33,069 nucleotides of DNA. Origin: a virus. Made by a program: the position numbers and the translations under genes. This document shows positions 217 through 24,828 of the stretch, one piece after another. Position 1 is the first letter of the stretch; each line of letters begins with the position of its first letter. The notes beneath the pieces are model-generated. The model saw only the letters and a program-made list of their open reading frames with translations, searched no databases and was not told the DNA's origin. Where the stretch lies: positions 12,805-45,873 of IMG/VR virus record IMGVR_UViG_3300000116_000029; one strand, written 5' to 3'.

Positions 217-226
217 GTACAGTATG
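212..226 (+). promoter_or_regulatory. Late-promoter-like box abutting the first N-twitch radical SAM start
   Basis: AATAAGTAC lies immediately before AGTATG, where the ATG is the start of the 224 gene. A near copy, GATAAGTACTAGTATG, sits at the start of the desaturase gene on the minus strand (24826-24841). Both resemble the ATAAATACTA box upstream of the tail-fibre gene. T4-type late promoters have a single -10-like TATAAATA element with the transcript starting a few bases on, so the RNA would begin at or beside the ATG. Inferred from motif similarity only. Confidence 0.35.
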
Positions 227-1636
227 AGCGATAAAACATTACCATCAGAAACATTTTGTTTATTACCCTGGGTGCATTTAAGTACCCGCCCAGACGGTAG
301 TATGCGAGTATGTTGTACAGCAAATGCAAGTTCAGTTGGTCCTACAAACGATAAAGAACACGGTGGCCAAGTTGGTATTCTTAAAACAGATGACGGCAAA
401 CCTAACAACTTAAATGTTAGTGACTTTGAAACAGCATGGAACAGTAAGTACATGAAAAATGTACGTAAACAGATGCTTGCAGGCGAAAAGCCTCCTAGCT
501 GTTTAAAATGCTACAAAGAAGAAGCCGCCGGACACCGAAGTAAACGTATGTGGGAAACACACTATTGGAGTAAGCGAGTTGATTTAGATAAAATACTTGC
601 TGATACACAACCAGATGGAGAAGTTCCGCCCAACTTAGCATACATTGATTTACGTTTCGGCACCAAGTGTCAACTTGCCTGTGTTATGTGTAGCCCACAT
701 GATTCAAGTGGGTGGATTAAAGATTATAAAAAGATATTTCCTGAAGTAAAAAATGAATCTCTCAAAGAGATCATGCAGTGGCAAGACAAAGGTAGTACAA
801 ACGGCAGTAGTTATAACTGGCATAAACAAAACCCTACGTTTTGGAAACAGTTTTATGAGCAAATGCCTAGTATGCAACAGATATATTTTGCTGGCGGCGA
901 GAGTCTTATTATTGAAGAACACTACGAAATACTTGAACATGCAATTAAAATGGGTTACGCTAAAGATTTAGAATTACGTTATAATTCAAACGGAGTTGAA
1001 TGGCGTGAGGATTTATTTGACTTATGGAAAGAATTTAAACTAGTACGTTTCCACTACAGTATAGATAGCATTAAAGAAATGAATGACTATATTCGTTATC
1101 CTAGTACTTGGACACGTCAGGAAGAAGTATTCCATTTGTTAGATACACAAACTAGTAACAACGTTGAAGTAACTATTGCGTGTGCAGTACAAGCACTAAA
1201 TGTATACTACTTACCAGATTTTATTCAATGGAAGCTAGAGCAGAAGTTTAAGAAAGTTAACATGTGGCCATTTGGCGCTGGCGGTATTAGTCAGCACTTT
1301 GTATATTGGCCTGCACATTTAAATGTCAAGAGCTTACCTGCAGACTTCAAAGCCAAGTGTAGAGCAAAATACGAAGCATGGTATCCTTGGTGGGAAGCAA
1401 ACTGGGAGTTAGGATTACCAAGTTGGCACAAAGGTAAAGTCACTAAAGAAGATTTTATGCAAGCCGAATATGGTATTAAAAGATTAAACGGTATCCTTAG
1501 TTTTATGGAAAGCGAAGACTGGAGCCAGCGATTACCTGAGATGAAAGAGTTTTTAGGATTGTGTGATAAACAGCGCGGCAATACTTTTGAAGAAACGTTT
1601 CCAGAAATGATAGAAATTTTTAAGGATATAGCGTGA
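224..1636 (+). CDS. N-twitch domain radical SAM protein (copy 1)
   Basis: A 470-residue protein with two Fe-S modules. The N-terminal twitch-like region has C12, the pair C30-C31 and C93/C96, with the W-x2-H and GExxPxC context typical of N-terminal-twitch radical SAM proteins. The radical SAM core has CxxxCxxC at C149/C153/C156, followed by SP, and an AGGES motif at 223-227 equivalent to GGEP. Family knowledge: SAM is cleaved reductively to a 5'-deoxyadenosyl radical; the twitch domain holds an auxiliary cluster. The substrate is unknown. An in-frame start exists at 197, but ATG 224 is chosen because it matches the N-termini of the paralogues (MSDK/MSDT-type) and sits right after the upstream stop. 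No Shine-Dalgarno precedes it. It heads a run of five translationally packed genes. Confidence 0.88.
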   Translation: MSDKTLPSETFCLLPWVHLSTRPDGSMRVCCTANASSVGPTNDKEHGGQVGILKTDDGKPNNLNVSDFETAWNSKYMKNVRKQMLAGEKPPSCLKCYKEEAAGHRSKRMWETHYWSKRVDLDKILADTQPDGEVPPNLAYIDLRFGTKCQLACVMCSPHDSSGWIKDYKKIFPEVKNESLKEIMQWQDKGSTNGSSYNWHKQNPTFWKQFYEQMPSMQQIYFAGGESLIIEEHYEILEHAIKMGYAKDLELRYNSNGVEWREDLFDLWKEFKLVRFHYSIDSIKEMNDYIRYPSTWTRQEEVFHLLDTQTSNNVEVTIACAVQALNVYYLPDFIQWKLEQKFKKVNMWPFGAGGISQHFVYWPAHLNVKSLPADFKAKCRAKYEAWYPWWEANWELGLPSWHKGKVTKEDFMQAEYGIKRLNGILSFMESEDWSQRLPEMKEFLGLCDKQRGNTFEETFPEMIEIFKDIA

Positions 1637-2952
1637 ATGTAAAAGAAGAAAACTTTTGCATTGTCCCTTTTGTACAATTAAACACTAGAGGCAAAGGCGA
1701 TGCTAGAGTATGTTGTAGCATTGAAGGTATTGATTTTGGCATTCCAAAAGAAATGACTCTAGACGAGATAACTCCTGACACTTATTCTAGTGACACTAAT
1801 GTATATAATTTAAGTAAAGATAAGATTGAAGACTTATGGAATGGTCCTTTTATGAAAGACTTCCGTATGAAAATGCTTAACGGAGAAAAACTTAGTAACT
1901 GTGAATTCTGTTACAGAATGGAAAATAGCGGATTTGGAAGTAAACGCACTGGTAAGAATAAACGATTTTTAGAACGTGTAAAGCCACACTTACAAAAGTA
2001 TTATGAGTCAAACGGACATGTTGATGTTATGCCGCAATGGTGGGAAGTAAGACTCAGTACCAAATGTAATTTAAGTTGTATTATGTGTTCGCCTAATCTT
2101 AGTAGCATGATGTACAAAGAGTACAACAAATGGGGCAACAAGATAACAGGACAAATGCAAGGTAGTTTAGATATTGCAAAACGTTCGGGTGAAGAATATC
2201 TAAGTCAAAGTAAATTTTTTAAAGAACAAATAATGACTAACCTTGAACATGTATTATATATGGAGTTTAGGGGCGGAGAAGTATTTGCAGATAGACATAG
2301 CATTGACTTTATTTGGAGTATTGCTAAAACAGATTATGCAAAAAATATTAGTCTTGATATAAGCACTAATGCAACATTAATAACAGATGAAATAGTAGAT
2401 CTATTAAATCATTTTAAAGGTGGATTACTAAGGTTTAGTATTGATGCTGGCCAAGAAAAAGACGAATTAATACGTTATCATACTAATTGGGATAGTGTAA
2501 TAACTAGTATTGAAAATTCAAACAACTTACATAAAGAATGGGAAATGGTAACACAGACTTGTCTACAAGCTCTTAATTGTGTAGGGCTAGTTCCTATGCT
2601 AGAATATTTTGATGAAATGTGCAATCGTACTAATAACGAACGTTTTCATTTAGGATTTACAAGTGTACGTGGTAAAGAATGGATGCGGCATGAACTTGTA
2701 CCACTTAGTTATAGGCAACAAGAAATTTCTAATCTCGAAGAGTTTATTAAAAGTAGTTGGTTATGTAATACTAGTAAGTACAAAAATAGAGAAACTAAAA
2801 CTATACAAGGACTTATAAAAGCATTATCTGCAGAAACTAAAATAGACAGTGTACTTAATAACAAAGCAAGAGAATATTATCTTAAACTAAACGAATTGCG
2901 TAACGTAGACTACTGGAAAACATTCCCACACTTGGAGTACCTAAATGAGTAA
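1633..2952 (+). CDS. N-twitch domain radical SAM protein (copy 2)
   Basis: A 439-residue paralogue of the 224 product. Twitch cysteines are C9, C27-C28 and C90/C93; the radical SAM motif is C145/C149/C152 followed by SP; FRGGE replaces the usual GGEP. The start is GTG at 1633, overlapping the previous stop by 4 bases (GTGA). AAGGA at 1622-1626 gives a well-placed ribosome binding site, and no in-frame ATG lies nearby, so GTG is convincing. It is expected to be cytosolic and oxygen-sensitive. Sequence divergence from copy 1 is large outside the cysteine motifs, suggesting a different substrate or a different position on a shared substrate (inference). Confidence 0.87.
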   Translation: MNVKEENFCIVPFVQLNTRGKGDARVCCSIEGIDFGIPKEMTLDEITPDTYSSDTNVYNLSKDKIEDLWNGPFMKDFRMKMLNGEKLSNCEFCYRMENSGFGSKRTGKNKRFLERVKPHLQKYYESNGHVDVMPQWWEVRLSTKCNLSCIMCSPNLSSMMYKEYNKWGNKITGQMQGSLDIAKRSGEEYLSQSKFFKEQIMTNLEHVLYMEFRGGEVFADRHSIDFIWSIAKTDYAKNISLDISTNATLITDEIVDLLNHFKGGLLRFSIDAGQEKDELIRYHTNWDSVITSIENSNNLHKEWEMVTQTCLQALNCVGLVPMLEYFDEMCNRTNNERFHLGFTSVRGKEWMRHELVPLSYRQQEISNLEEFIKSSWLCNTSKYKNRETKTIQGLIKALSAETKIDSVLNNKAREYYLKLNELRNVDYWKTFPHLEYLNE

Positions 2953-4333
2953 ATTAGAAACATTATGTCCTGTACCATGGATGAGCCAAAGTCTTAGAGC
3001 AAATGGAGATATTCGTGTTTGCTGTCAAGCACAGCACGGACCAACTGGCGGCTTACTACGTGACGAGGACGGAAAAGAGTATAATGCTCGTACAGCTGAT
3101 CTTAAGAAAGTACGTAACAGTGAATTGTCAAAAGAAATACGTAAGTATATGATGGAAGGCAAATGGCATCCTGAATGTGTTCGTTGTCAAACAGAAATGG
3201 AATCGGGCATGAATGCTCGTATTGATTACGAAAATAAAATTTGGATTGAGCGTGGAGAATTTACTTGGGAAGATTTATTATCTAAAACAGCGGCCGACGG
3301 CACAATAGAAGAAGATGAAATAAATTGTAGTTTTTATGATGTACGATTTGGTAACTTATGTAATTTAAAATGTCGTATGTGCGGCCCTACTGACAGTAGT
3401 ATGTGGTATGAAGATCAAGTTAAACTATGGGGTGATAGTTATAAAGACAGCCATGGTAAAGTCAAACTTATAAAAAATGCAAAAGGAAAATATGAACCTG
3501 AAACAAATTTATACGATTGGCACGAAAGTGATCACTATTGGATTCAAATGGACAACAACATTGATCAGATACGCAAGCTATATATCGTAGGCGGCGAGCC
3601 GTTAATGATTGATAGACATTATGAATTCCTGCAAAAGTGTGTTGATCAAGATTGTGCAAAAAATATTATTGTAGAATATAATACTAATATGACAAATATA
3701 CCACAGCGTGCCTGGGACGTTTGGAAACATTTTAAACAAGTAAACATTGGTGCTAGTATTGACGGAGTAGGTGACTTACAGTATTACATGCGTCCGCCAA
3801 GTAGGTTTAATAAAATACACGAAAATTTATTAAAAGTAAGCAAAGCCGAAGGTAACTTTAAAGTATGGATTGCGGCAACTATTAACGTATTTAATGTATT
3901 GCACTTTCCTGAGTTTATGGAATGGATACTTCTTAATAAAATACCTAAAGTAAATGACGACGAGTGGCGCCCCATAATTACACCACACCCCTTACATGGT
4001 CCAAAGTTTTATAATATTAGAATGTTACCAAGTTGGGCAAAAGATCATATCAAACAAAAGTACGAAGACTACAAACCAAGACTATTAAAAATAATTGATG
4101 AAAGTGATTTTACAGAAGCACGTAAAGAGGCTAGTAGAAGAGATGCGGTAAATTTATTAGATCAATATATTAAGTACATGTATGCTAAAGACTTTAGTGA
4201 ACACTTGCCTCAGTTTTGGCATGCTACACGTAAACTAGACAAAATACGCAATCACAGTATAGAAAAGTATATACCTGAGCTGTATGAACTCTTAAAGGAT
4301 ACTGAAGTTGTTTCTGAATCTAAGCGAGATTAA
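2945..4333 (+). CDS. N-twitch domain radical SAM protein (copy 3)
   Basis: A 462-residue protein. The N-terminal auxiliary-cluster cysteines are C8, C26-C27 and C78/C81; the radical SAM motif is C139/C143/C146 in NLKCRMCGP; VGGEP follows in the core. It shares with copies 1, 4 and 5 the C-terminal region containing a conserved HGPKF/HGPKYF-type segment and an 'IRNHS/IRNNS' helix near the end, seen here as KIRNHS. ATG 2945 overlaps the previous stop by 8 bases, with GGAG upstream as ribosome binding site. Third of the tandem set. Which step it catalyses cannot be read from sequence. Confidence 0.87.
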   Translation: MSKLETLCPVPWMSQSLRANGDIRVCCQAQHGPTGGLLRDEDGKEYNARTADLKKVRNSELSKEIRKYMMEGKWHPECVRCQTEMESGMNARIDYENKIWIERGEFTWEDLLSKTAADGTIEEDEINCSFYDVRFGNLCNLKCRMCGPTDSSMWYEDQVKLWGDSYKDSHGKVKLIKNAKGKYEPETNLYDWHESDHYWIQMDNNIDQIRKLYIVGGEPLMIDRHYEFLQKCVDQDCAKNIIVEYNTNMTNIPQRAWDVWKHFKQVNIGASIDGVGDLQYYMRPPSRFNKIHENLLKVSKAEGNFKVWIAATINVFNVLHFPEFMEWILLNKIPKVNDDEWRPIITPHPLHGPKFYNIRMLPSWAKDHIKQKYEDYKPRLLKIIDESDFTEARKEASRRDAVNLLDQYIKYMYAKDFSEHLPQFWHATRKLDKIRNHSIEKYIPELYELLKDTEVVSESKRD

Positions 4334-5366
4334 AACCATACAAATGGACCATACTAGCAGGTGTCAACTTGCATGTCCTCAGTGTGCAAGATTCCACGGC
4401 AGTCAAACAGAATTAAATCCTTATATGCCAATATCAGATACAACAGTAGACGATTATAAAATTATACTAGGACCGTTTGAGCCTGACACAATTAAATTAT
4501 TCCATTGCGGAAACTTTGGCGACAGCCTTAGTAGTCCTACATTAGATGATAGCATAGATTATAGTTTAAGTAAGGGCGTTAAAGAATTTAAAATGGCTGT
4601 CAACGGTAGTGCAAGATCAACAGAATGGTGGAGAGATCTAGCACAAAAAAGTAGTCGTATTACTGTTAATTTTAGTATAGATGGATTAGCGGATACAAAT
4701 CATCTGTACAGAATAAACAGTAATTTTAAAAAAATAATGGAAAACGCAAAAGCATTTATAGATGCTGGCGGCAATGCTCGTTGGTATTTTATTGAATTTG
4801 AACATAACTATCATCAAATCGATGAAGCAAGACGTATAGCAACTGACATGGGATTTAAACAGTTTAATGCAAAATATACTGGAAGATTTGCAGAACAACA
4901 ACAAAAAGAAATTGCAACTAAAAAAGGTACTATTATAGAAGATAAACAAGATAACCATAATCAAAAAGACATGCAGGAGATAAAACAAACTTATAATAGC
5001 TTTGAAGATTATATTGAACAAACTCCTATTGTATGCAAATATAAACAAGAACAAAGTGTGTTTATTGATATGGAGATGAAACTTTGGCCGTGTACTTGGA
5101 TGGGGGCACCTGCATATTTTGGTCCTAATAATCCGCAAAGAAAAAGTTTTGATAATTTGTATAAACTATACGGAGACGATTTTAACGACATGCGTAAGCA
5201 CGGTTGGAATGTTTTAGAACATGAATTTTTTGCTACGTATCTAGATAGATCGTGGAACAACCAGAGCACTAAATATAAAAGAATATACACATGTGGAAGA
5301 ACCTGTGGAAATAAATTTGAATTTAGTAGCGGATACGGCAAAAATACGAGGAGAGTAAATCTATGA
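4308..5366 (+). CDS. Radical SAM protein with SPASM-like C-terminal cysteines
   Basis: A 352-residue protein. The radical SAM motif is C19/C23/C26 (RCQLACPQC), followed by a CGNFGD motif (67-72) where most family members have GGEP. The C-terminal half has C243, C262 (LWPC), C329 and C333 (CGRTC), consistent with a SPASM/twitch auxiliary cluster. Start: TTG 4308 is preferred because AAAGGA lies 8 bases upstream, and because an ATG at 4344 would delete the first beta strand (IKTIQM) ahead of the cysteine motif. It overlaps the previous gene by 26 bases and the next by 4. SPASM radical SAMs often act on peptides or on small sugar-like substrates; the substrate here is unknown. Confidence 0.82.
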   Translation: MFLNLSEIKTIQMDHTSRCQLACPQCARFHGSQTELNPYMPISDTTVDDYKIILGPFEPDTIKLFHCGNFGDSLSSPTLDDSIDYSLSKGVKEFKMAVNGSARSTEWWRDLAQKSSRITVNFSIDGLADTNHLYRINSNFKKIMENAKAFIDAGGNARWYFIEFEHNYHQIDEARRIATDMGFKQFNAKYTGRFAEQQQKEIATKKGTIIEDKQDNHNQKDMQEIKQTYNSFEDYIEQTPIVCKYKQEQSVFIDMEMKLWPCTWMGAPAYFGPNNPQRKSFDNLYKLYGDDFNDMRKHGWNVLEHEFFATYLDRSWNNQSTKYKRIYTCGRTCGNKFEFSSGYGKNTRRVNL

Positions 5367-6565
5367 GTGATACATTTTGTCCATTATTATATGCTGGGAT
5401 AGCAACAGACCCTAGTGGAGGATACAGGCCATGTTGTAGATTTGATTGGTCTGAAAGTTTTCATGGGCCATTAGAAGATTATAGAAACAGTGATATGTTT
5501 AAGAAAATGGAACAGCAGTTCTTGAATGGCGAATGGCCTAAGGGTTGTTCTGATTGCGTTAAAGATGAAGCAGCCCACGGAAACAGCAAAAGAATTAGAG
5601 AAATTGCAAACTACAAAAGAAAATATAAACAAGATGTAGATATAGAACACTTAAAAACTAATAAGTACGATATAATAGATTTAAGACTGAGTAACAAATG
5701 TAACTTAGGATGCCTTACTTGCAATCCAAGAAGTAGTAGTTTAATTTATGATGAAGTAAAACAAAATGAAGGAAAACATTTATTACACATGAATAATATA
5801 TATGATTTTATACAAGGTAGAGATCTTACTAATCCTTATTCTGATTCAGAAATAGATAAATTATTTGATTGTGTCAGCAAAAGTGCTAGAATATATTTTA
5901 CAGGAGGCGAACCCAGTATAGTAAAAGGTTGTCTTAAATTTTTACAAAGATTAATAGATGAAGGATATAATGAAACAGTTACGCTAGAATTTAACAGTAA
6001 CTTTCAAACTAGTAATCCAAAGTTTATAGATCTACTAAGTCATTTTCCTAAAGGCTTAATGATGCCAAGTATAGACGGAATAGGAATACGTGCAGAATAT
6101 ATACGATATCCAAGTAATTGGGAAAGAATTGACAGCAATATAAAATTATTTAGAGAAAAGTGTCCTACCTGGCAAATACATTTTGCACCTACAATTAGTA
6201 TATTAAATGTATTTTATTTAGATGAGCTTTTAGAATACTGCCTTGAAAATAATTACCAATGTAAATTTAGTAATATTTTACATGGGCCAAAATATTTCAA
6301 TATTACAAATCTGCCAAAGAAGTGGAAAGATAAAGCAGCAGAAAAAATTGCAGAAACGCAAAACCTTTGGGTAGATCATAATCAATTAAACTATAAACAA
6401 AATGAAAAGTCTTATGGTAATGTTACAAAATATATGTATAGTCAAGATACCTCTGACAGATTAAAGTCACTTAAAACTAATTTAGAAAAGATTGATAAAA
6501 TACGTAATAATAGTTATAAAGAAAGTTTACCTATACTAGAGGAAATATTTAAAGAATGCTTGTAA
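5363..6565 (+). CDS. N-twitch domain radical SAM protein (copy 4)
   Basis: A 400-residue protein with twitch cysteines C6, C24-C25 and C62/C65, radical SAM motif C113/C117/C120 (NKCNLGCLTC), and TGGEPS in the core. The C-terminus repeats the HGPKYFNI segment and the KIRNNS helix seen in copy 3. GAGGAG 10 bases before ATG 5363 is a good ribosome binding site. It overlaps the gene before by 4 bases and the SDR gene after by 10. It is about 60 residues shorter than copies 1 and 3, mainly between the twitch and core modules. Confidence 0.87.
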   Translation: MSDTFCPLLYAGIATDPSGGYRPCCRFDWSESFHGPLEDYRNSDMFKKMEQQFLNGEWPKGCSDCVKDEAAHGNSKRIREIANYKRKYKQDVDIEHLKTNKYDIIDLRLSNKCNLGCLTCNPRSSSLIYDEVKQNEGKHLLHMNNIYDFIQGRDLTNPYSDSEIDKLFDCVSKSARIYFTGGEPSIVKGCLKFLQRLIDEGYNETVTLEFNSNFQTSNPKFIDLLSHFPKGLMMPSIDGIGIRAEYIRYPSNWERIDSNIKLFREKCPTWQIHFAPTISILNVFYLDELLEYCLENNYQCKFSNILHGPKYFNITNLPKKWKDKAAEKIAETQNLWVDHNQLNYKQNEKSYGNVTKYMYSQDTSDRLKSLKTNLEKIDKIRNNSYKESLPILEEIFKECL

Positions 6566-7107
6566 TAGGAAATAAAAATTATGGACTTGCAAACAGTATT
6601 GCAAAATTATATCCTAACGCAACATTTTTAAGTCGGAGCTCTGGTTACAACTTAGGTAAACGTGAAGTCAGAGAACTTGTAGCTAAAGAAAGTGTTAATC
6701 ATGAAGTGGTATTGTTAGTAAGTGCTTTAGGTGATTTTAGTCAAGTAATGCTTGCAGAAGCAATCGCCAAAGAATGGTGGAGTTCTAATCATAAAGGATA
6801 TCTAATTGCTTTAGGTAGTAGTGCAGATACTCCTGTAAAAGGGTCTAAATGGATTTATCCTGTGGAAAAGAAAGCTCTTAGATCTTATATGCGGCAATTA
6901 AGCCAAGCCGCAAGTAGCGACACTCCTCCTAATTGGAAAATAACTTATGTTTCTCCTGGTAATATGCATACTCCAAGGCAAGACGAGAAGATGCCGGATA
7001 CTAAAAAATTAGAAACTGATTATGTTGCAGGCGTAATAAAGTGGCTTATAGATCAGCCACCAATTGTAAATATAAGTGAATTATGCCTTGACAGGATACA
7101 AAAATGA
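6556..7107 (+). CDS. Short-chain dehydrogenase/reductase-like protein (SDR 1)
   Basis: A 183-residue Rossmann protein. VIGNKNYGLA at 3-12 stands in for the TGxxxGIG nucleotide-binding loop, serines at 88-89 fit the catalytic Ser, Y101-x3-K105 (YPVEK) fits the SDR YxxxK pair, and SPGNMHTP at 133-140 matches the post-catalytic PG segment. Known family role: NAD(P)-dependent oxidation or reduction of alcohols and carbonyls. It is shorter than the usual 230-250 residues and has an imperfect glycine loop, so cofactor binding should be tested. It overlaps both neighbours (10 and 4 bases). A second SDR (23362, minus strand) lies at the opposite end of the cassette. Confidence 0.75.
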   Translation: MLVIGNKNYGLANSIAKLYPNATFLSRSSGYNLGKREVRELVAKESVNHEVVLLVSALGDFSQVMLAEAIAKEWWSSNHKGYLIALGSSADTPVKGSKWIYPVEKKALRSYMRQLSQAASSDTPPNWKITYVSPGNMHTPRQDEKMPDTKKLETDYVAGVIKWLIDQPPIVNISELCLDRIQK

Positions 7108-7724
7108 ATTATTTGCAATTAAGAAATCCACCAAAACAATTTGTAAAATTGTGTGAACAAACTTTTAAAAAATACAAAGGAACAGATTGGAAAATTGAGA
7201 TGAATAAATATCATTTTTCTTCAGATATAGAATACGATGATTTAATCAAATTTCAAAATATTATTCCGGAAAAAATACATACTGTAAGTATTAACCTTAT
7301 TACAAAAGCTATAAAGTCTAGAGGAACTCATATAGACAGAAAAAGAAAAGCTGCTTTACAATTTCCAATTGTTTGCGATCCTAACGTACATCAAGTATAT
7401 GTGCTACAAGATGAAAAAAATTTAAATAAGTTAACACCTACAAACACTGGTGGATTTAGAAAACAAAATAAGCCACATGTAGATTGGGCGAACCAGAAAT
7501 ATCCGGATATGCCTATGTTCCATGAATACGACGAACAATATTTTGAAGTTCATAATGTAGAAAAATACATTCCGTATATTACTGACACAAGTTTGCCACA
7601 TGGTGGATTGCACTATGAAGGAGTTGAACCCCAGTCTATTAACGAAAGATGGTTTATAAGTATTTCCTTACCAGATAGAATAAATGTGTATGATCGTAAA
7701 AAAGTTTTTGCACAATGGTTATAG
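7104..7724 (+). CDS. 2OG/Fe(II) oxygenase-like DSBH protein (DSBH 1)
   Basis: A 206-residue protein with the pattern of a double-stranded beta-helix oxygenase: H76-I-D78 (GTHID), a distal His at H166 or H170 (LPHGGLH) and R182 followed by a hydrophobic strand (RWFISISL), where the Arg would bind 2-oxoglutarate. Known family role: Fe(II)- and 2OG-dependent hydroxylation or related oxidation. ATG 7104 overlaps the SDR stop by 4 bases, with AGGA upstream. Its last 6 bases overlap the 3' end of the convergent 7719 gene. Substrate unknown. Family placement rests on the H-x-D...H...R pattern and context. Confidence 0.65.
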   Translation: MNYLQLRNPPKQFVKLCEQTFKKYKGTDWKIEMNKYHFSSDIEYDDLIKFQNIIPEKIHTVSINLITKAIKSRGTHIDRKRKAALQFPIVCDPNVHQVYVLQDEKNLNKLTPTNTGGFRKQNKPHVDWANQKYPDMPMFHEYDEQYFEVHNVEKYIPYITDTSLPHGGLHYEGVEPQSINERWFISISLPDRINVYDRKKVFAQWL

Positions 7725-8862: not shown

Positions 8863-8889
8863 TGCGTGGTTTACCGGGATTTACACAAT

Positions 8890-9537: not shown

Positions 9538-9539
9538 AA

Positions 9540-10689: not shown

Positions 10690-10694
10690 TAAAC

Positions 10695-17641: not shown

Positions 17642-18239
17642 TGGCGCAAATATAAGTGTACACCAGCAAGTAGCCGAACGTCTACAACCTAAGACTTGCG
17701 TAGAAATAGGTACATACTATGGTGGCATTACATACAAATTAAGTAAAATACTACCAGATAGTCATTTCTTTGCTGTACAAAGTTATCACGATCATAAACT
17801 TAATCACATGCCTAACACAGATAGAGGCGAATACAGTATTGGGAAAGCAAAAGAAGATAAAAGTGAAGGCCTTGATAAAGATTTAAAAGACCAAGACTGG
17901 AAGCGTAGTGTTAAAAGACACTTTCCAAAAGAGTACCACGACTATTTTGATTTTAATCTACTAGCAAAAACATTTGAAGATTGTGACAATGTAAGTATTA
18001 TATTAGACACCAGTCCTTTTAAGTATGATTGGAAAATTGGATTTGACTTAGCAATATTTGATGTATCACCGTTGCTAGAAGAAAACATTAAACAATTTAA
18101 TTATTGGTGTAAGTATGGTAATCATCATGCTAACATATTAATGGGCGCATATAATCATCAACAAGAATTTTATGATTATGTAGACAAAAGATACAAAGCT
18201 GAAAAAGTAAGAGATGATTATGTTCTCGTGTGCATATGA
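17625..18239 (+). CDS. Class I SAM-dependent methyltransferase-like protein
   Basis: A 204-residue protein. VEIGTYYGG at 26-34 is a methyltransferase motif I variant (VEIGxxxGG), followed by an SHFFAVQ strand where the ribose-binding acidic residue would be expected. DLAIFDVSP resembles the motif IV region (D-x-x-F-I-D-x). It is similar in outline to small phage methyltransferases that act on sugars or other small molecules. The acidic residue ending strand 2 is replaced (VQSYHDH), so SAM binding is likely but not certain. AAGGA lies 8 bases before ATG 17625. It overlaps both neighbours. Confidence 0.6.
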   Translation: MYSMHDGANISVHQQVAERLQPKTCVEIGTYYGGITYKLSKILPDSHFFAVQSYHDHKLNHMPNTDRGEYSIGKAKEDKSEGLDKDLKDQDWKRSVKRHFPKEYHDYFDFNLLAKTFEDCDNVSIILDTSPFKYDWKIGFDLAIFDVSPLLEENIKQFNYWCKYGNHHANILMGAYNHQQEFYDYVDKRYKAEKVRDDYVLVCI

Positions 18240-18885
18240 AATTAATTTAGATATTTCACAAGTTCGTGAAGAATTAAAGCATTTAAACAATCCTACGTTT
18301 AAATGTGCAGGTTATGATGACATGTGTTTCTATGTTTCTGATGAAACAATTAAAAAACAAGGCTGTGATGCTGTAATAAAGTTTAAAAAAGATCTTAGTG
18401 ACCCGTTTGTTGAAGGTGTTAGATTTTTGAATATGTATCCTAAGTCATATTATCTTCCTCATTGTGATAGTAATGAACAAGGCTTTCATGAAGACATACC
18501 TATGGATGTTCTACATCCAGGTAATGTAAACATATTACTTAGTGAACCAGTAGAAGATACAACTATATGGTACATTGACCCCGACCTAAGAAAACTATGG
18601 CCTTGGGGGTTTTCTCCTAAAGGCGTGTTATATCCCGAAGATATAAATTCTAACATTACAAAAGAGTCTATGGGACATGACTATAGTAATCTTGTAGAAG
18701 TTGATAGATTTAAATTAAAGGATAAAGCTACATTATTTAATAGTGGAGTTAATCATCATATAGTAAGCGAAGATAAAGAAAATCCAAGAGCAAGTGCATG
18801 TTTTGTATTTTGGCCTTATAATACATGGCAAGGTATTGTAGAAGCACTAAAGATAAAAGGATTATTAAATGACCGCGTGGAATAA
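18220..18885 (+). CDS. DSBH/2OG oxygenase-like protein (DSBH 7; paralogue trio member 1)
   Basis: A 221-residue protein with H81-C-D83 (LPHCD), distal H179/H180 (GVNHHIV) and R190 (NPRASACFVFW). Its N-terminus (CAYEINLDIS), the VEVDRFKL segment, the distal-His strand and the final GLLNDR align with the 20547 product, and more loosely with 19990, so the three are local duplicates. ATG 18220 is preferred over 18214 because it lines up with the paralogue start MKCCYELNIE. It overlaps the methyltransferase-like gene by 20 bases and the sulfotransferase by 17. Substrate unknown. Confidence 0.68.
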   Translation: MFSCAYEINLDISQVREELKHLNNPTFKCAGYDDMCFYVSDETIKKQGCDAVIKFKKDLSDPFVEGVRFLNMYPKSYYLPHCDSNEQGFHEDIPMDVLHPGNVNILLSEPVEDTTIWYIDPDLRKLWPWGFSPKGVLYPEDINSNITKESMGHDYSNLVEVDRFKLKDKATLFNSGVNHHIVSEDKENPRASACFVFWPYNTWQGIVEALKIKGLLNDRVE

Positions 18886-19396
18886 AGAAAAACTTTTTAT
18901 TCACATTCCTAAAACTGCTGGCCGAAGTGTTACAGTTTCGATGGGAAAGGTAAGTATAAAACCACATGCTCCTATATGTGATCCAGCATTACCTAAACTA
19001 CCAAGTTTTACTGTAATTAGAAATCCTTATGAACGTGCAGTTAGTTGGTGGAAGTATTCTAGACAGTATGGCATTGATGTAGGATTTTTAGAATATCTTT
19101 ATATGTATTTTGATAAACCTTGGCCTAATTGGCAAGAACAGTTTCAAGAATATACTACTACTACTTCAGACTTTCATTTAGGAGAATTTAAGCCTAGCAT
19201 TCCTATGATAGATTATATATCTATAGACGGAAAAGTATGTGTTGATAATATTATTAGATTAGAAGATAACACTATTCAAGAACGAAAAAACGTTAGCAAA
19301 TTCCAAGTAAATACTAGAGAGATACTTACACCGGAGGCTAAGAATGTAATTGAACACTATTATGGTGTTGACTTAGAAAGATTTAATTATGCATAA
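18869..19396 (+). CDS. Sulfotransferase-family protein
   Basis: A 175-residue protein. IHIPKTAGRS at 11-20 is the 5'-phosphosulfate-binding loop with its Lys, and VIRNPYERAVSWW at 49-61 is the 3'-phosphate-binding motif with R51 and S59. This is the carbohydrate-type sulfotransferase (sulfotransfer_2-like) pattern, which moves sulfate from PAPS to a hydroxyl or amine, often on glycans. It is compact compared with the family (usually over 220 residues) but contains both cofactor motifs. AAAGGA precedes ATG 18869 by 7 bases. No PAPS-making genes are in view, so the host's PAPS would be used (inference). Confidence 0.82.
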   Translation: MTAWNKEKLFIHIPKTAGRSVTVSMGKVSIKPHAPICDPALPKLPSFTVIRNPYERAVSWWKYSRQYGIDVGFLEYLYMYFDKPWPNWQEQFQEYTTTTSDFHLGEFKPSIPMIDYISIDGKVCVDNIIRLEDNTIQERKNVSKFQVNTREILTPEAKNVIEHYYGVDLERFNYA

Positions 19397-20003
19397 AAAA
19401 ACTTTACCCAGTATACACAATTTTAAACTAGATATCGACTTAAAAAAGCTACAACAAGCAACAGATACACTTGCAGAAAAGTTTGTAGATGTACGTACAG
19501 CTAATCCAATGCTGTGTATGAACCATGAAGATTTAGTTAAAGATGTATACGATAACTTTGAACAGATAAACCTAACTACACCTAGTGAGATTTTACCGCA
19601 CACAGCCAGCATTAAAGAGCGTCTTAGACGCCGAGAAGAACACTTATACAATGTGCCTACCAAAGACTATCTAAGCAGTTACTTTGAACAAGTAGTTACA
19701 CAACTAAAATCACCTGCAAGTAGAATTAGAATAACAAAACTAGCACCTGGAAAAAATATTCCTTTTCATGTTGATTATGATGTAAGTTATGCTGTAAGAT
19801 GTATTGTTCCTATCTACGGTGATAAGCAGGTTATTAACTTATTCAAACGTGAAGGAAGACTAGAAGCGTATAATTTAGAAAATGGCAATGCTTATTTCCT
19901 AAACATAGGATATCCACATGCTGTAGTTAATATGAGTAGCAAACCAAGGATTGCATTGATGTTTAGTTTAGATGGAACGGATGACTTGGATGGATTGGTA
20001 TAA
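19389..20003 (+). CDS. 2OG/Fe(II) oxygenase-like DSBH protein (DSBH 8)
   Basis: A 204-residue protein with a textbook layout: IPFHVDYD gives H127-V-D129, RCIVPIYG is the second strand, GNAYFLNIGYPHAV gives H177, and KPRIALMFSL gives R187. Family role: Fe(II)/2OG-dependent oxidation. The N-terminal 100 residues are helical and charged and have no recognised domain. ATG 19389 overlaps the sulfotransferase stop by 8 bases. It sits between two members of the DSBH paralogue trio but is not close to them in sequence. Confidence 0.73.
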   Translation: MHKKTLPSIHNFKLDIDLKKLQQATDTLAEKFVDVRTANPMLCMNHEDLVKDVYDNFEQINLTTPSEILPHTASIKERLRRREEHLYNVPTKDYLSSYFEQVVTQLKSPASRIRITKLAPGKNIPFHVDYDVSYAVRCIVPIYGDKQVINLFKREGRLEAYNLENGNAYFLNIGYPHAVVNMSSKPRIALMFSLDGTDDLDGLV

Positions 20004-20550
20004 ATTAGATATTCCGGTGACTACCCAGTACATAGACTTAGCAAAAAAACATTATGAATTAGAAGGTAGGTATGGACAGAATGAAGATTTATTAAGTCCA
20101 TTTAGAAATCTTCCCATTGATATAGTTACATATAAGTTTAGAGTTATGAATGATATAGAGGAAATTCACCCGCATAAAGATCGCAATAATGGGCAATATA
20201 ACTTTGATGGAGAAGTTGTTGGTGCAATTCAAGTACCAATTGAAAATCCTACCTATGCAGAAACTACTTGGTGGAACGCAGATAAAGATATAGATGACGG
20301 CTGGCATTTTTACAAAGGTAATGCTAAATCATTATTTGATAAAGATCCAAATTTTATACCTGAAGGATTTACTAAAAAAAGCACAATGGTAATGGATAAC
20401 AAGTGTGCTTTGATACGTATAGATGGATGGCATTCAGTACGAAGATTAAATGAAGGAAGAAGACTTATTTTATCGTTGATTATTGATCCAAAGTATACCT
20501 GGAAAGAAATTACAAATAGGCTTATGCCGTTAGTAGAGGAGAGAATATGA
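19990..20550 (+). CDS. DSBH/2OG oxygenase-like protein (DSBH 9; paralogue trio member 2)
   Basis: A 186-residue protein. PHKD gives H62-K-D64 (H60 is adjacent), GWHSVRR gives H148, and GRRLILSLI gives R158. The start WYKLDIPVTTQYI and the tail TWKEITNRLMP align with the 18220 and 20547 products. Three in-frame ATGs (19972, 19981, 19990) are available; 19990 best matches the paralogue N-termini. Any of them overlaps the previous stop. A GAGGAG near the 3' end serves the next gene. Confidence 0.67.
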   Translation: MDWYKLDIPVTTQYIDLAKKHYELEGRYGQNEDLLSPFRNLPIDIVTYKFRVMNDIEEIHPHKDRNNGQYNFDGEVVGAIQVPIENPTYAETTWWNADKDIDDGWHFYKGNAKSLFDKDPNFIPEGFTKKSTMVMDNKCALIRIDGWHSVRRLNEGRRLILSLIIDPKYTWKEITNRLMPLVEERI

Positions 20551-21128
20551 AGTGTTGTTATGAATTAAATATCGAAATAAGTGATGCATATAAGGAACGA
20601 GTAAAAGAAATTTATGACTTGTGCAAAGATGATGCAAAGAAAGATGTTGCACCAGATTGTATGCGTGAAGAGTTTCCAGAATTATGGGCACCTATTGAGC
20701 CAGTAGCTGATTGGTTTTCGCCTGTGGTAAGAATGCTATATGAACCTCCGGGACAAAAAGTTGTAAAGCATATTGATCTAAATGCACATGCACAATACGG
20801 TGATGCTGGCAGATATATTATTTGCCCTGGAGCATTAAATATTCCTTGTTTTAATCCTATAGGCGATATTACAAAGTGGTGGCGCCAAAAAAATCCTGAA
20901 TTTATTCATCCATACGATTTTTGGAAGGGAAAAGATCATGACATGGTAGAAATAGATTCATTTGAAATAACAACCAAACCTGTTATGTTACGTACAGGAG
21001 TGTTTCATAGTGCTGAAAATAACGGTAATGAAAATAGATTAATGGTTAGTTTTTTTACGCATTGGACGGTTGATTGGGATACTATTATTGACGTGATGTC
21101 TTCCAACGGGCTCTTACTTCCTCGTTAG
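20547..21128 (+). CDS. 2OG/Fe(II) oxygenase-like DSBH protein (DSBH 10; paralogue trio member 3)
   Basis: A 193-residue protein with H75-I-D77 (VKHIDL), H154 (GVFHSAE) and R164 (ENRLMVSFF), the complete set expected for Fe(II) and 2OG. The ends match the 18220 product closely: YELNIEIS at the start, VEIDSFEI before the distal strand, and SSNGLLLPR at the C-terminus. AGAGGAGA 6 bases before ATG 20547 is a strong ribosome binding site; the start overlaps the previous stop by 4 bases. Last gene of the plus-strand block. Its final 44 bases overlap the 3' end of the convergent 21085 gene. Confidence 0.72.
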   Translation: MKCCYELNIEISDAYKERVKEIYDLCKDDAKKDVAPDCMREEFPELWAPIEPVADWFSPVVRMLYEPPGQKVVKHIDLNAHAQYGDAGRYIICPGALNIPCFNPIGDITKWWRQKNPEFIHPYDFWKGKDHDMVEIDSFEITTKPVMLRTGVFHSAENNGNENRLMVSFFTHWTVDWDTIIDVMSSNGLLLPR

Positions 21129-21615
21129 CAAAAGGCCAACCACTTATATTAATTCTACTTCCTGTACAAGGTTCCACCCAATGATCAAATCCTGTACGCA
21201 TTATTACAAGTCTGTTTCTTTTAGGAAGTATAGTCATGTCTTCTGTACATAAAGAACCGTCTATTTCGTCTGTCATATAAAGCATCCATACCCAGTCACC
21301 ATATACTTTTGGATCTTCTTTGTGCTTGCCTATACGGCTACTAGGAGTAAACTTTTTAGCAAACAGTTGCATAGGTTCTAAATCTTTTGTAGGTAAACTA
21401 GTGCCTATGTATTCGCCTATCTCACTTAACAGTTGTAGTCTATGCGGAGAAGTTCTAATGTTGTTTTTAATCATTTGCCACTCGTAGTCGGTATATTCGC
21501 CTACGTGAGATCCTGTTTCACTGTCTAGTTGTAACAGTTCGCCCTTGCAAAGTTCATCTAGTTGCTGTAGATAATCTTCGTCAAAAATATTGTCAGCTAC
21601 TATAACCGTGTTCAT
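21085..21615 (-). CDS. Prolyl-hydroxylase-like DSBH protein with an HxE-type metal motif (DSBH 11)
   Basis: A 176-residue protein built like a small prolyl-4-hydroxylase-type oxygenase. GKHKEDP gives H98-K-E100, WVWMLYMTD is the next strand, NRLVIMRTGFDHWV gives H145, and SRINISGWPF gives R154. The first motif is H-x-E (D101 is one residue too far), a permitted but less common variant of H-x-D. AAGGA stands 8 bases before ATG 21615. It overlaps the 21593 gene by 23 bases. Its 3' end is antisense to the end of the 20547 gene over 44 bases, with no clear terminator. Confidence 0.7.
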   Translation of the reverse strand: MNTVIVADNIFDEDYLQQLDELCKGELLQLDSETGSHVGEYTDYEWQMIKNNIRTSPHRLQLLSEIGEYIGTSLPTKDLEPMQLFAKKFTPSSRIGKHKEDPKVYGDWVWMLYMTDEIDGSLCTEDMTILPKRNRLVIMRTGFDHWVEPCTGSRINISGWPFANEEVRARWKTSRQ

Positions 21616-22309
21616 GTTCCCAATCCTTCCAAGTTAAGTTATTATCTTCTAACCACTGATTATTATGACCAGCACCGGTACTTTTTTCGCCATTTAAGCT
21701 ACATATCATATGTAATCTTTTTTTACAATAAGGCACCATGTGGGCATTGTTTGTGTTCAAGATAAACGCTTGTCCAGGCTTACAATTTACATCACCGCTT
21801 TTGCAAACAATACTTGGAGCTTCACCATCATTCATAATGACATGATGATACCTATATCCTGTGTCTCCATCAGTATGCCATTCCATTATACAATCATGTT
21901 CCATATAACTAAACCACATATTATTTCTTTTGCCAGGCAAATTAATATCATCGTAGTATTGTGTTTTCATTTCATGCGGAACAAATGCGTATATATTTTT
22001 ATGTGTATAATCGCCTACTCTAGCATTTTCTTTTCCTAGATGAAACTTGTATAACTTTCCGTTTGGGTAGTTCCATTCTTGTGCGTAATCTTCCCAGTTA
22101 TGCTCATTAGGCATATCAAACCCTCGTAAACTATTATAAAAATCACGCTTATTAAGCAGGAGCGAGTTACGCTTTATGTAAACATTGAGATATGTTTGAT
22201 CACCAAAAACACAATCTCCTAAAAATTCATCTGTCATTTCATGCCATAGTTTTTCTATTTGTTTTAAGTTGTGAAAAGGGTTAATTAATCTATAATCTTC
22301 TGTAAACAT
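21593..22309 (-). CDS. 2OG/Fe(II) oxygenase-like DSBH protein (DSBH 12)
   Basis: A 238-residue protein with H145-T-D147 (MEWHTDGD), H190 (NNAHMV) and R198 (KKRLHMIC). The spacing is that of a standard Fe(II)/2OG core in the C-terminal half. The N-terminal 130 residues are a separate, His/Asn/Tyr-rich region of unknown role. AGGAGG 8 bases before ATG 22309 is a perfect Shine-Dalgarno, unlike most plus-strand cassette genes. Overlaps neighbours by 23 and 25 bases. Substrate unknown. Confidence 0.73.
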   Translation of the reverse strand: MFTEDYRLINPFHNLKQIEKLWHEMTDEFLGDCVFGDQTYLNVYIKRNSLLLNKRDFYNSLRGFDMPNEHNWEDYAQEWNYPNGKLYKFHLGKENARVGDYTHKNIYAFVPHEMKTQYYDDINLPGKRNNMWFSYMEHDCIMEWHTDGDTGYRYHHVIMNDGEAPSIVCKSGDVNCKPGQAFILNTNNAHMVPYCKKRLHMICSLNGEKSTGAGHNNQWLEDNNLTWKDWEHEHGYSS

Positions 22310-22752
22310 TCGTAAACCTCCTCTATTGGTTCTGCAAAGCAGATTTGAAAATTGTATCTTGGGTATTCGTTATTATTTACATAGTGTGCTAATTGTGTGT
22401 TAAAAAGATAAGGCGTTCCATATTTAATCATAGGTCCGTCTTCAAAGTAACAAGGAGCATATTCTTCATGCCAAAATAAAGGCACAATTAAAACTGTATT
22501 TCTTTTCCATTTAGGATTATCTGTATGAGAAACTATTTTAGAAAAAGGTTCTTGATGAACAAAGAAAGTATAACTGTCAACATTAAATCTGTTAAAATAA
22601 TCTAAATTAATATCCCAACATAAATTTCCGTCTTTCTTTCCGCTTATTGTATCATACGCAATAAAATTTGCTTCAGGAGATTTACAAAGACCTTCTAAAA
22701 AAGATACATCTTCTTTGCTTATAAGATCTACTGGAAAGAAATATGGCATCAT
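22285..22752 (-). CDS. Minimal 2OG/Fe(II) oxygenase-like DSBH protein (DSBH 13)
   Basis: A 155-residue protein, the shortest of the DSBH set. H76-T-D78 (VSHTDN), H123 (LAHYV) and R132 (YPRYNFQICF) give the full ligand pattern. It is essentially a bare core with about 60 residues before the first motif. The ATG at 22752 overlaps the stop of the preceding 22749 gene by 4 bases, so coupling is likely. A second ATG follows directly (MMPYF). Substrate unknown. Confidence 0.7.
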   Translation of the reverse strand: MMPYFFPVDLISKEDVSFLEGLCKSPEANFIAYDTISGKKDGNLCWDINLDYFNRFNVDSYTFFVHQEPFSKIVSHTDNPKWKRNTVLIVPLFWHEEYAPCYFEDGPMIKYGTPYLFNTQLAHYVNNNEYPRYNFQICFAEPIEEVYECLQKIID

Positions 22753-23393
22753 GATATTAGAGCTCTTACTTTATCTACACTTTGTTCTGTTGTAACAACA
22801 TTTATAATAAGCCAAATACTATCATCATTAGACGCATTAAACAGCATATGTTTCTTTAATGTATTTACATAGTATAATCGTCCATACTGCCATTTAAGTG
22901 CTGTATAGTTAATGTCATCACCTAGCATCCAGCAACATCCCGGAGGATTTGTATTTGTTAATGCCATTGCTAGTCTAAAAGTTTCTGGTGTTTGTTTCTT
23001 ACCGCCATCAATGTGCGGAGGAAAGTAACCGCCAGGTGGTAAACTAATTATTTGTGTTCTTGCTAAAAAAGGTCTCCAAGGATCAAGTAAGTTCTGTAGT
23101 TCTTTACTGTTTTTGTATAGATCGGTTGGTTTATTAAAATCGCTTTCTTCGATACTTTTACCAGTAGTACGAGAATGTTCTGTTAGACTACTTACACTAT
23201 TATTAGTCATTTCTCCAGTCAATGACGTAACTGTTAAACTATTTCTTGGGATATCAGGTTTATTAGGATTATACTTTTCCCAATAGTCTTTGTATTGCTC
23301 TATGTCTTTTAAAACTTCTTTAGGAGCCACAAAAGAGTTAAGAGCTATAAAGTCACCGTAGTTATTTAGAATTGAATAAAGATTCCAACTCAT
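22749..23393 (-). CDS. Aspartyl/asparaginyl beta-hydroxylase-like DSBH protein (DSBH 14)
   Basis: A 214-residue paralogue of the 12451 product on the opposite strand 10 kb away. FPPHIDGG gives H127-I-D129, TFRLAMAL gives R140, and KKHMLFN gives H182. Shared signatures with 12451 include DFNKPT, the CCWMLGD/EWWLGD turn and the IIxNV end. It is about 40 residues shorter at the N-terminus. AAGGAGGT 6 bases before ATG 23393 is a perfect ribosome binding site. The start overlaps the SDR gene by 32 bases. As with 12451, the Arg between the motifs suggests beta-hydroxylase-like rather than prolyl-hydroxylase-like cosubstrate binding. Confidence 0.73.
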   Translation of the reverse strand: MSWNLYSILNNYGDFIALNSFVAPKEVLKDIEQYKDYWEKYNPNKPDIPRNSLTVTSLTGEMTNNSVSSLTEHSRTTGKSIEESDFNKPTDLYKNSKELQNLLDPWRPFLARTQIISLPPGGYFPPHIDGGKKQTPETFRLAMALTNTNPPGCCWMLGDDINYTALKWQYGRLYYVNTLKKHMLFNASNDDSIWLIINVVTTEQSVDKVRALIS

Positions 23394-23838
23394 TGAGTAC
23401 CTCCTTTACAGCATCTTCTGTTGTTATTGTTTCTAATAGGTGTGGATTATTTTCGAGTATCCAATGACCTTTAGTAAATCCCCATGTTAAATATTTTTGT
23501 TTGTTAGTTTCGCTAAACATTTTGAGAGAAAGTTTATTATTCTTCATAGAATAGTAAGGTGCAGTAACTTTTGCTTCAGTAATCTTACTTCCTATATTAA
23601 TACATCTAATACCTTTGCTATGTGCTAACAACGCAATGTTTACTTGTGTTGTACTAAATTCAGTGTTATTAATCAATACATCATATTTGTTTTTAAATAT
23701 AGCATCAATATCTTCTGGAAAATGGTATCCGTTAGTCATACTAAAGCCTATTACATTGTGACCTAGTTGAGTACATGCTTTGGCGATATGTTTTCCAAAG
23801 CCACTTGTATGACCGGTTATGCCAATCGTAAGACCCAT
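23362..23838 (-). CDS. Short-chain dehydrogenase/reductase-like protein (SDR 2)
   Basis: A 158-residue Rossmann protein with a good TGHTSGFG loop at 8-15, an NNTE segment (57-60) in the place of NNAG, S84 (NIGS) and Y95-x3-K99 (YYSMK). These are the nucleotide-binding and catalytic elements of SDRs, in a protein about 80 residues shorter than usual, so the substrate-binding C-terminal part is minimal. AGGAGG precedes ATG 23838 closely. It differs from SDR 1 (6556) in its intact glycine loop. It overlaps the GNAT-like gene by 22 bases. Possible role: ketone/alcohol step on a desaturase- or oxygenase-derived product (inference). Confidence 0.76.
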   Translation of the reverse strand: MGLTIGITGHTSGFGKHIAKACTQLGHNVIGFSMTNGYHFPEDIDAIFKNKYDVLINNTEFSTTQVNIALLAHSKGIRCINIGSKITEAKVTAPYYSMKNNKLSLKMFSETNKQKYLTWGFTKGHWILENNPHLLETITTEDAVKEVLNELESLFNSK

Positions 23839-24272
23839 TGTAGCCCTCCTAATGGTATTTCCTCTTGTGTAATATTCCAGTTATAAAAACTATGTTTCTG
23901 GAACCATTCTAATAGTTTTGGATTTTCTTCTCTGCTTAACCATATATCTTTGTATCCCATGTCTAGTGCCATCTTAGTACTAAATCCTAATGTACTATTA
24001 CCTCGTTGTAAATCATCTTGCATTGTACCCCAATCGTAATTGCGATCTCTGGTATGACGACTCATAATCCGTATGCCGCCATTGTATTCTGGCCTTTCTA
24101 TACCGGCACTATAATAGACTAAGTGAGGATCCCATCCCATACGAGCAAATTTAGTATGCTGGAATAAAGGCCACTTGCTGTAGTTATCAGCATGTTTGTG
24201 TCCTTGTGTTTTTGCAAACAATTCTTTTATGTCCTCTAGGTGGGGATCAATTTTTTCTAAACGCCATTTCAT
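23817..24272 (-). CDS. Unassigned protein, possibly GNAT-like acyltransferase
   Basis: A 151-residue soluble protein. A central GGIRIMSRHTRD strand and the later GFSTKMALDMGYKDIWLSRE followed by KLLEWFQKHSF recall the strand-helix-strand and final helix of GNAT N-acetyltransferases (a 'neighbour ages differently from its peer' surface motif is absent, and the acetyl-CoA loop Q/RxxGxG/A is not clear). I therefore treat the GNAT suggestion as weak. ATG 24272 (MKWRLE) is chosen over 24296 because the shorter form begins at a natural domain start and overlaps the desaturase by 26 rather than 50 bases. Confidence 0.45.
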   Translation of the reverse strand: MKWRLEKIDPHLEDIKELFAKTQGHKHADNYSKWPLFQHTKFARMGWDPHLVYYSAGIERPEYNGGIRIMSRHTRDRNYDWGTMQDDLQRGNSTLGFSTKMALDMGYKDIWLSREENPKLLEWFQKHSFYNWNITQEEIPLGGLQWVLRLA

Positions 24273-24828
24273 GATGATCTTTATGATTTCCTTCAAACGG
24301 TGCGATTAAGTTTACCCATATATTATTAATCGGACCTTTGCTATCATGCCCCCAAAGGTTTAATGCACCAAAGCCAAAGTAGGCTAGTGCATATATTATT
24401 GCTAATACTATAAGTGCTTTATATCCAAAAATTAAAGCAAGTAATATTGCATTTGAAATATAAATTACATTTCTATGTTTGTGAAAAAACACTATCCTAG
24501 GATTTGTAACCATGTCTTTTAAAAATTTTCTTGGTATAGCATCTACTCTCCAAAGACTAAACAATATAGAATACCAAGGTTGATATCTTGCACTGTGAGG
24601 ATCTTTAGGAGTATCAGTATACGCATGATGCATACGATGAACACCAACCCAACCTAGTGGACTTCTGTTTCCACAAAGCAATCCGCAATACAGCATAACA
24701 ACTTCTTGCCAAGGCTTTGCCTTAAATTCATTATGCGAAAAGTATCGATGGTATCCGTAAGTAATGCCAATTGTAACAACTAACATATACGAAATATAAG
24801 ACAATAGGATAAGATATAGTATTTGCAT
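24247..24828 (-). CDS. Short membrane fatty acid desaturase (acyl-lipid/acyl-CoA delta-9 type)
   Basis: A 193-residue integral membrane protein with all three di-iron histidine boxes: H27RYFSH32, H64RMHH68 and H182KDHH186, plus NLWGH with H161, an extra ligand in this family. Hydrophobic stretches at 3-22, 40-52 and 122-155 are the membrane segments. Known role: O2-dependent introduction of a double bond into a fatty acyl chain. It is much shorter than bacterial relatives (about 250-330), lacking one N-terminal hairpin and most of the C-terminal tail after box 3. ATG 24828 lies just after a GATAAGTACTAGT box and has no Shine-Dalgarno. Confidence 0.88.
   Translation of the reverse strand: MQILYLILLSYISYMLVVTIGITYGYHRYFSHNEFKAKPWQEVVMLYCGLLCGNRSPLGWVGVHRMHHAYTDTPKDPHSARYQPWYSILFSLWRVDAIPRKFLKDMVTNPRIVFFHKHRNVIYISNAILLALIFGYKALIVLAIIYALAYFGFGALNLWGHDSKGPINNIWVNLIAPFEGNHKDHHEMAFRKN

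Follow-up and report, generated by a model that had tools for sequence, protein, structure and literature searches.

The window analyzed here, a stretch of 33,069 nucleotides, covers positions 12805-45873 of the 53,837-base viral record IMGVR_UViG_3300000116_000029. Both missing ends were added, and genes were called on the whole record and numbered own1 to own69; the records used are metagenomic and partial, and their gene calls were made in the present analysis. Between window position 224, where own16 begins, and 24296, where own45 closes, 30 genes were called: nine encoding radical S-adenosylmethionine (rSAM) proteins, 14 candidates for double-stranded beta-helix (DSBH) proteins and seven others. 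The full island extends over ca. 34 kb and has 13 rSAM genes, the window holding its right two-thirds; its left end lies at record position 3265, 9.5 kb beyond the window, and its right end at window position 24828. Genes overlap at 36 of the 42 junctions of the whole island, in agreement with the near-universal overlap noted in a preliminary description of the window, and the largest gap within it does not exceed 30 bases. To the left of the window, a one-strand chain of overlapping genes runs on to tail genes own1-own3 and contains own4, two GT8-like genes, own7, two genes of a family with a DxD motif (DxD family), a methyltransferase-like gene, a gene of 74 codons (own13) and four more rSAM genes.

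All nine rSAM proteins of the window matched PF04055, eight above the cut-off and that of 4308-5366 below it (E 2.4e-4). Five of them, and one from the left flank (320 bits), belong to the N-twitch family N_Twi_rSAM (NF033640), scoring 277-421 bits in the window against a curated cut-off of 170 bits, under which the remaining window rSAMs tested fall. The nine genes are as follows.

224-1636, + strand: N-twitch rSAM own16; PF04055 3.7e-9, NF033640 421 bits; single copy in every de-duplicated record, 58-87% identity
1633-2952, + strand: N-twitch rSAM own17; NF033640 277 bits; dN/dS 0.07
2945-4333, + strand: N-twitch rSAM own18; NF033640 366 bits; relatives 70-95% identical
4308-5366, + strand: rSAM own19, SPASM-maturase-like, with a Cys-rich C-terminal part; PF04055 2.4e-4, phrog_21308 2e-17, TIGR04317 4e-9
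5363-6565, + strand: N-twitch rSAM own20; NF033640 313 bits
7719-8849, - strand: N-twitch rSAM own23; PF04055 2e-10, NF033640 313 bits
9540-10664, + strand: rSAM own25; PF04055 1.8e-13; 92-95% identity in nearest relatives
10695-11816, + strand: rSAM own26; PF04055 1e-13; found beside both rSAM modules (see below)
15447-16979, + strand: B12-binding rSAM own32, KedN5-like; PF04055 4e-11, PF02310 6e-4, NF033712 158 bits (below its cut-off of 700)

An alignment of seven sequences (A1) showed invariant residues C21, C40, C102 and C105 at the N-terminal auxiliary-cluster site, and C158, C162 and C165 of the CxxxCxxC motif. Pairwise identity among the island rSAMs of this record is at most 37%. At 45% identity the rSAM genes of all records fell into 66 clusters, the largest of which have one copy per record, and the catalytic cysteine motifs are intact in 333 of the 339 genes. 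Duplication within the phage is unsupported as the origin of this set, given the low identities and the single-copy state of most clusters. Cellular relatives of own18, sought in genome contigs, gave weak patterns and nothing useful.

Pfam support from single proteins was limited to four of the DSBH genes, at 13905-14729, 19389-20003, 21085-21615 (below cut-off) and 22749-23393 (weak); therefore, family alignments were built from relatives. An HxD/E...H triad is invariant in eight such alignments, which account for 11 of the 14 genes, and in six of the eight an arginine lies 8-11 residues past the distal histidine, the usual anchor of 2-oxoglutarate (2OG); this arginine was not seen in the families of own29 and of own28/own43. 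A twelfth gene (own30) was identified by a match to the TauD family, a thirteenth (own22) by a profile tie to own37, and own24 by its motif alone. For own35 and own41, which come from families without usable sequence matches, AlphaFold2 models were generated. Both were confident and both matched solved 2OG-Fe(II) oxygenases of the double-stranded beta-helix fold, so that these two DSBH calls passed the check by structure prediction set in the preliminary description; the matches take in the protein hydroxylases AspH, PHD2 and P4H as well as small-molecule 2OG enzymes.

7104-7724, + strand: DSBH/2OG-oxygenase-like own22; HxD...H, profile tie to 19389-20003 (3e-5, Asp_Arg_Hydrox-type)
8866-9537, + strand: DSBH-like own24, the weakest call; HxD...H motif alone, four relatives
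12451-13209, + strand: AspH-like DSBH own28, paralogue of 22749-23393; invariant H127xD129...H182 (alignment A10), PDB beta-hydroxylase 0.014
13210-13908, + strand: DSBH own29; invariant H91xD93...H208 (A9, 11 sequences)
13905-14729, + strand: TauD/TfdA-type 2OG-Fe(II) oxygenase own30; PF02668 5e-26
16976-17641, + strand: DSBH own33; invariant H93xD95...H174...R183 (A5), 71-97% identity
18214-18885, + strand: DSBH own35; model (pLDDT 82.6, pTM 0.84) similar to prolyl hydroxylases, AspH and OkaE; H83xD85...H181...R192
19389-20003, + strand: Asp/Asn beta-hydroxylase-type DSBH own37; PF05118 (Asp_Arg_Hydrox) 2.6e-6, above cut-off; triad and R187
19972-20550, + strand: DSBH own38, own35 family (A6); 97% identity in record G025
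20547-21128, + strand: DSBH own39, own35 family (A6); 98% identity in G025, dN/dS 0.02
21085-21615, - strand: 2OG-Fe(II) oxygenase own40; PF13640 (2OG-FeII_Oxy_3) 5e-4, below cut-off; HxE...H...R154
21593-22309, - strand: DSBH own41; model (pLDDT 80, pTM 0.83) similar to ALKBH5, AspH and P4H; H145xD147...H190...R198
22285-22752, - strand: DSBH own42; H76xD78...H123...R132 (A8)
22749-23393, - strand: AspH-like DSBH own43; PF05118 0.026, alignment A10

At least 13 of the 14 DSBH calls are thus upheld by a family match, the invariant triad, relatedness to a supported family or the predicted fold, and all nine rSAM calls stand, so that the dense cassette put forward in the preliminary description is real and was, if anything, understated. 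PDB sequence searches with the DSBH families besides A10 gave no useful match, a viral-contig scan with own41 gave no useful result, and hhalign comparisons among the families returned low probabilities, with the HxD positions nevertheless aligned. Gene own40 (21085-21615) belongs to PHROG 274, which is labelled DNA endonuclease V; this label looks wrong because own40 keeps the 2OG triad and cyanophage proteins under the same label match a 2OG-oxygenase model.

With own18 as query, viral contigs yielded 23 loci, whose records, together with that of the window, hold 4-23 rSAM genes each; an rSAM-rich module (A) is shared with 23 records. Searching with the own35/own39/own38 family identified nine more records, and there own28-own46 (module B) recur largely colinear, at 45-98% identity, next to a different rSAM set; a scan with own33 brought two further records. 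The window unites two modules, each found elsewhere. Their join appears natural, since own26 directly adjoins own28 in records G027 and G030; with this adjacency, and with the left half repeated at 97-100% identity in G001, an assembly chimera at the join is unlikely. Recurrence of the modules in colinear order also rules out a random mosaic. The earlier proposal of a dedicated system, not scattered accessory genes, survived this check and is borne out by the conserved order, the conserved modules and purifying selection, dN/dS being 0.02-0.28 for genes with close relatives.

Two GT8 genes, own5 and own6, stand in the same-strand run just left of the window, and the earlier remark that the cassette has no glycosyltransferase was therefore wrong. 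The profile of the pair matches glycogenin at 2e-5 and its D106xD108 motif is invariant. The GT8 pair and the DxD family stand at the start of the island in most related records, and a core formed by the pair, the conserved DxD protein and several rSAM genes returns in most related phage records. The least shared gene of the left end is own7 (L001:5238-5807), which is placed between this pair and a DxD gene and has no family match.

In all relatives showing both ends, the island has the same neighbours, the tail genes on one side and the convergent module own47-own69 on the other, which places it between tail-fibre genes and a replication module and confirms the position beside a tail-fibre gene noted earlier.

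24862-25989, - strand: tail-fibre-like protein own47, right border; repeat-rich fibre-like sequence, border kept in relatives

Upstream of the tail-fibre genes, relatives have a giant gene, with about 5,000 codons in G025 (C1 24579-39542) and 4,545 in G016, and record G014 carries ThyX, a flavin-dependent thymidylate synthase, at the island edge (L066:2540-3421). Own3, the tail gene that runs into the island, is preceded at 35 nt by a T4-type late box, TATAAATA. In three other records the box stands at a comparable distance ahead of the orthologue of own2 or of own3; it is rare elsewhere (one found versus 7.4 expected in the window). The box and the overlapping genes downstream suggest late read-through, and, judged from these sequence features, the island is probably late-transcribed.

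Median protein distances among relatives were 0.17-0.33 for own15, own16, own18 and own26, 0.48-0.64 for tail genes own2 and own3, and 0.17-0.29 for own51 and own52. Distances of the core (own5, own6, own8, own11, own15, own26) track those of the replication-side gene own51 (rho 0.81-0.94); for own5, own6, own8, own11 and own15 the correlation with own2/own3 is lower (0.29-0.72). Evolution coupled to the tail fibres was not seen in this comparison, and a fibre-specific role is thereby mildly disfavoured. This bears on the explanation that late rSAM and 2OG enzymes hydroxylate, crosslink, methylate or glycosylate the neighbouring tail-fibre proteins, leaving them hardened or with changed specificity. 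The location between tail-fibre genes, the likely common late transcript and the resemblance of the DSBH models to AspH, PHD2 and P4H are consistent with it, as is the proximity of the GT8 proteins to glycogenin, an enzyme that glycosylates protein tyrosine. However, own5, own6, own8, own11 and own15 follow own51 (0.81-0.90) more closely than own2/own3, small-molecule 2OG enzymes occur among the same structural matches, and free sugar-nucleotide enzymes are encoded by relatives. On balance, modification of virion proteins is considered unlikely.

The GT8 genes outside the window move the reading towards glycan work, and two further observations point in the same direction. In the same slot, relatives carry a DegT sugar aminotransferase of the PseC/LegC/ArnB type (3e-60, in G031, which also has the DSBH block), an NDP-sugar dehydrogenase (7e-46), a sugar-1-phosphate nucleotidylyltransferase (7e-14) and NodU-type carbamoyltransferases. 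In addition, three plasmid homologues of own23 (7719-8849) lie amid glycosyltransferases, ABC/alginate exporters, FkbM methyltransferases and epimerases, that is, in polysaccharide-type clusters. Based on these three lines, the island would be a phage system for building and tailoring a glycan, encoded next to host-recognition genes, a reading whose chances we regard as evenly balanced. According to it, the GT8 pair and the conserved DxD proteins would build or lengthen a sugar chain, on which, or on its nucleotide-sugar precursors, the N-twitch and other rSAMs, each a distinct single-copy gene, would perform radical C-H chemistry. The B12-rSAM may add C-methyl groups, the 2OG-Fe(II) oxygenases may hydroxylate or desaturate, and the PLP, methyltransferase and sulfotransferase enzymes would complete the glycan. 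The product would most likely alter a recognition surface, either the O-antigen or lipoglycan of the host, blocking rival phages, or a glycan of the virion; the target had been described earlier, likewise by inference, as virion, surface or lipid. Modular exchange of rSAM alleles and of the DSBH block would give rise to variants, the core being passed on vertically.

Several points weigh against this reading. Substrate and reactions are deduced from the genes, and we also infer the reaction order, late expression and the destination of the product (host surface or virion). The window's own record yielded no recognisable gene for sugar-nucleotide synthesis, those known coming from relatives, and the DxD family had no match in Pfam or PDB. 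The plasmid loci are few (three), KVP40-type phages hold related rSAMs without the GT8 pair, and many rSAM and 2OG enzymes act on substrates other than glycans. The B12-rSAM and the desaturase, for their part, suit small-molecule or lipid chemistry equally well.

The desaturase closes the island on the right and is one of eight accessory genes in the window:

6556-7107, + strand: small SDR-like own21; PF13561 2.3e-3, below cut-off; conserved at 38-81%
11773-12450, + strand: nitroreductase-like own27; PF00881 0.022, below cut-off
14707-15468, + strand: short PLP aminotransferase-like own31, with SxSK; PF00155 0.044, weak; 62-90% conserved in module B
17625-18239, + strand: class I methyltransferase-like own34; weak Pfam match, dN/dS 0.04
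18869-19396, + strand: sulfotransferase own36; PF03567 2.3e-5, above cut-off
23362-23838, - strand: SDR-like own44; PF00106 0.008
23817-24296, - strand: conserved protein own45; no Pfam match, identity in relatives up to 92%
24247-24828, - strand: fatty-acid desaturase own46, right end of the island; PF00487 1.4e-10

The accessory functions assigned earlier were thus upheld by Pfam for the sulfotransferase and the desaturase and found weak for the nitroreductase, PLP, SDR and methyltransferase calls, and a GNAT call for own45 was not confirmed, this protein being without a Pfam match; PF00881 is present in six island gene clusters. The island could also make a small molecule or a peptide resembling ribosomally synthesized and post-translationally modified peptides (RiPPs), secreted or intracellular. 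The twitch/SPASM rSAMs score against RiPP maturases, the B12-rSAM is KedN5-like and one relative shows a match to a daptide-type aminotransferase. However, no precursor-peptide gene was found in the island, whose tight packing leaves no space for a short one besides own13 (L001:10820-11044), and no transporter was seen. Own13, a protein of 74 amino acids in the rSAM module with no recognised family, is conserved throughout, unlike a precursor, with 67-88% identity along its whole length in 12 of 13 aligned relatives; a PDB search with it returned de novo repeat proteins and antibody chains and nothing else. A RiPP-like or other small product is accordingly thought quite improbable.

The own18 profile matches at least 129 viral contigs, and 40 additional records have 7-23 rSAM genes apiece; among the 35 more distant rSAM-rich environmental records searched, the DxD family is present in 31 and the GT8 family, often in tandem, in 25. 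Cultured relatives are distant: they are Vibrio Straboviridae, including KVP40, and lack GT8 and DxD genes. Portal and DNA polymerase of the relatives belong to the T4 superfamily, nearest (44-52%) to the types of Sinorhizobium phage Phosso, Agrobacterium phage Atu_ph07 and Cronobacter GAP32, and by these markers the phage is an uncultured T4-superfamily virus of bacteria. In the 179.6-kb record G023, which has 23 rSAM genes, the called rSAMs occupy the stretch from about 3.5 to 40 kb, apart from a single weak one at 51-52 kb. This record also encodes 20 tRNAs and a permuted tmRNA with the tag ANDNYAPETALAA (L032:15932-18202, L034:14692-15076); no exact occurrence of the tag was found in the genome collection, and an Rfam search gave nothing useful. 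Tag type and nearest phages together suggest an alphaproteobacterial host.

Phages also use 2OG and rSAM enzymes on DNA, and the island might protect DNA from restriction by hypermodifying it, as is done by phages that carry TET oxygenases together with rSAM and PLP enzymes. QueC-like proteins occur in the islands of some relatives (alignment A15) and beside the rSAMs of KVP40 (L121:7438-8124). However, a Tet_JBP match was obtained in none of eight records, the control being silent too, the single ThyA-family gene of G023 has a counterpart of its kind in KVP40, and 14 divergent oxygenases exceed any base pathway known to us. This is the least probable of the explanations considered.

One of the closest known systems, the T4-like marine virus TARA_ERS488813_N000010, carries 12 rSAM genes, which were read as Fe-S metabolism with a suggested link to host iron use (Nishimura 2017, PMC5332604). 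It resembles the present phages in being T4-like, about 180 kb long and rich in rSAMs, and in its A-type Fe-S carrier, which here was found in G023 (PF01521, 1.3e-15; C1:105650-105952); the parts of its description available make no mention of the island, the GT8 core or the DSBH block. The shared carrier would suit an auxiliary iron metabolism, in which these iron proteins serve host iron use, but that explanation accounts for cofactor supply and not for a product, and it predicts neither the linkage of GT8 and DSBH genes nor the catalytic cysteines kept in nearly all rSAMs. We rate it as highly improbable, and the view of such genes as scattered iron-related accessories is corrected by the present data.

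The host recognition cluster of pelagimyophages is likewise a large, hypervariable island, combining tail-fibre genes and GT8 glycosyltransferases with added rSAM cassettes, for which a change of the host surface was proposed (PMC7029224). That cluster lies between VrlC and gp14, whereas the right border of the present island, where the two were compared, consists of own47 and exonuclease/polymerase genes; a DSBH block does not feature in the accessible part of its description, and portal and polymerase place the relatives studied here nearest to Phosso, Atu_ph07 and GAP32. Schizotequatroviruses are T4-like too and show strong N-twitch rSAM matches, three in KVP40, where one rSAM adjoins a PF00534 protein (a glycosyltransferase family), and five in K566, but they have neither the GT8 pair nor the DxD family. 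Plasmid surface-polysaccharide clusters of Methylomagnum and Manganitrophus contain a twitch-domain rSAM of the same family amid glycosyltransferases and exporters; they differ in that each of the stretches seen has a single rSAM, that exporters are present and that no DSBH series is annotated.

Phages are known to change the host O-antigen with few genes. Here, a whole lineage devotes 25-50 kb to conserved tailoring enzymes, and the conservation of its rSAM genes is close to that of replication genes and exceeds that of the adjacent tail genes. If the glycan reading is true, these islands hold a large untapped pool of radical and 2OG enzymes acting on sugars and offer a testable case of viruses making complex surface chemistry. 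More tentatively, and with less than an even chance in our estimation, they may be viral modular assembly lines in which a glycan made by the phage is worked on by 13-23 single-copy rSAMs and a block of as many as 14 2OG oxygenases; the outcome would be a class of radical-tailored surface sugars unknown in cells, and phages would swap modules as alternative chemotypes. No description of the features that set the island apart was found in the open-access literature. Compared with the systems above, what is new is that the GT8-rSAM core forms a conserved unit, that the DSBH block is colinear, that single-copy rSAM groups are under purifying selection and that modules are exchanged.

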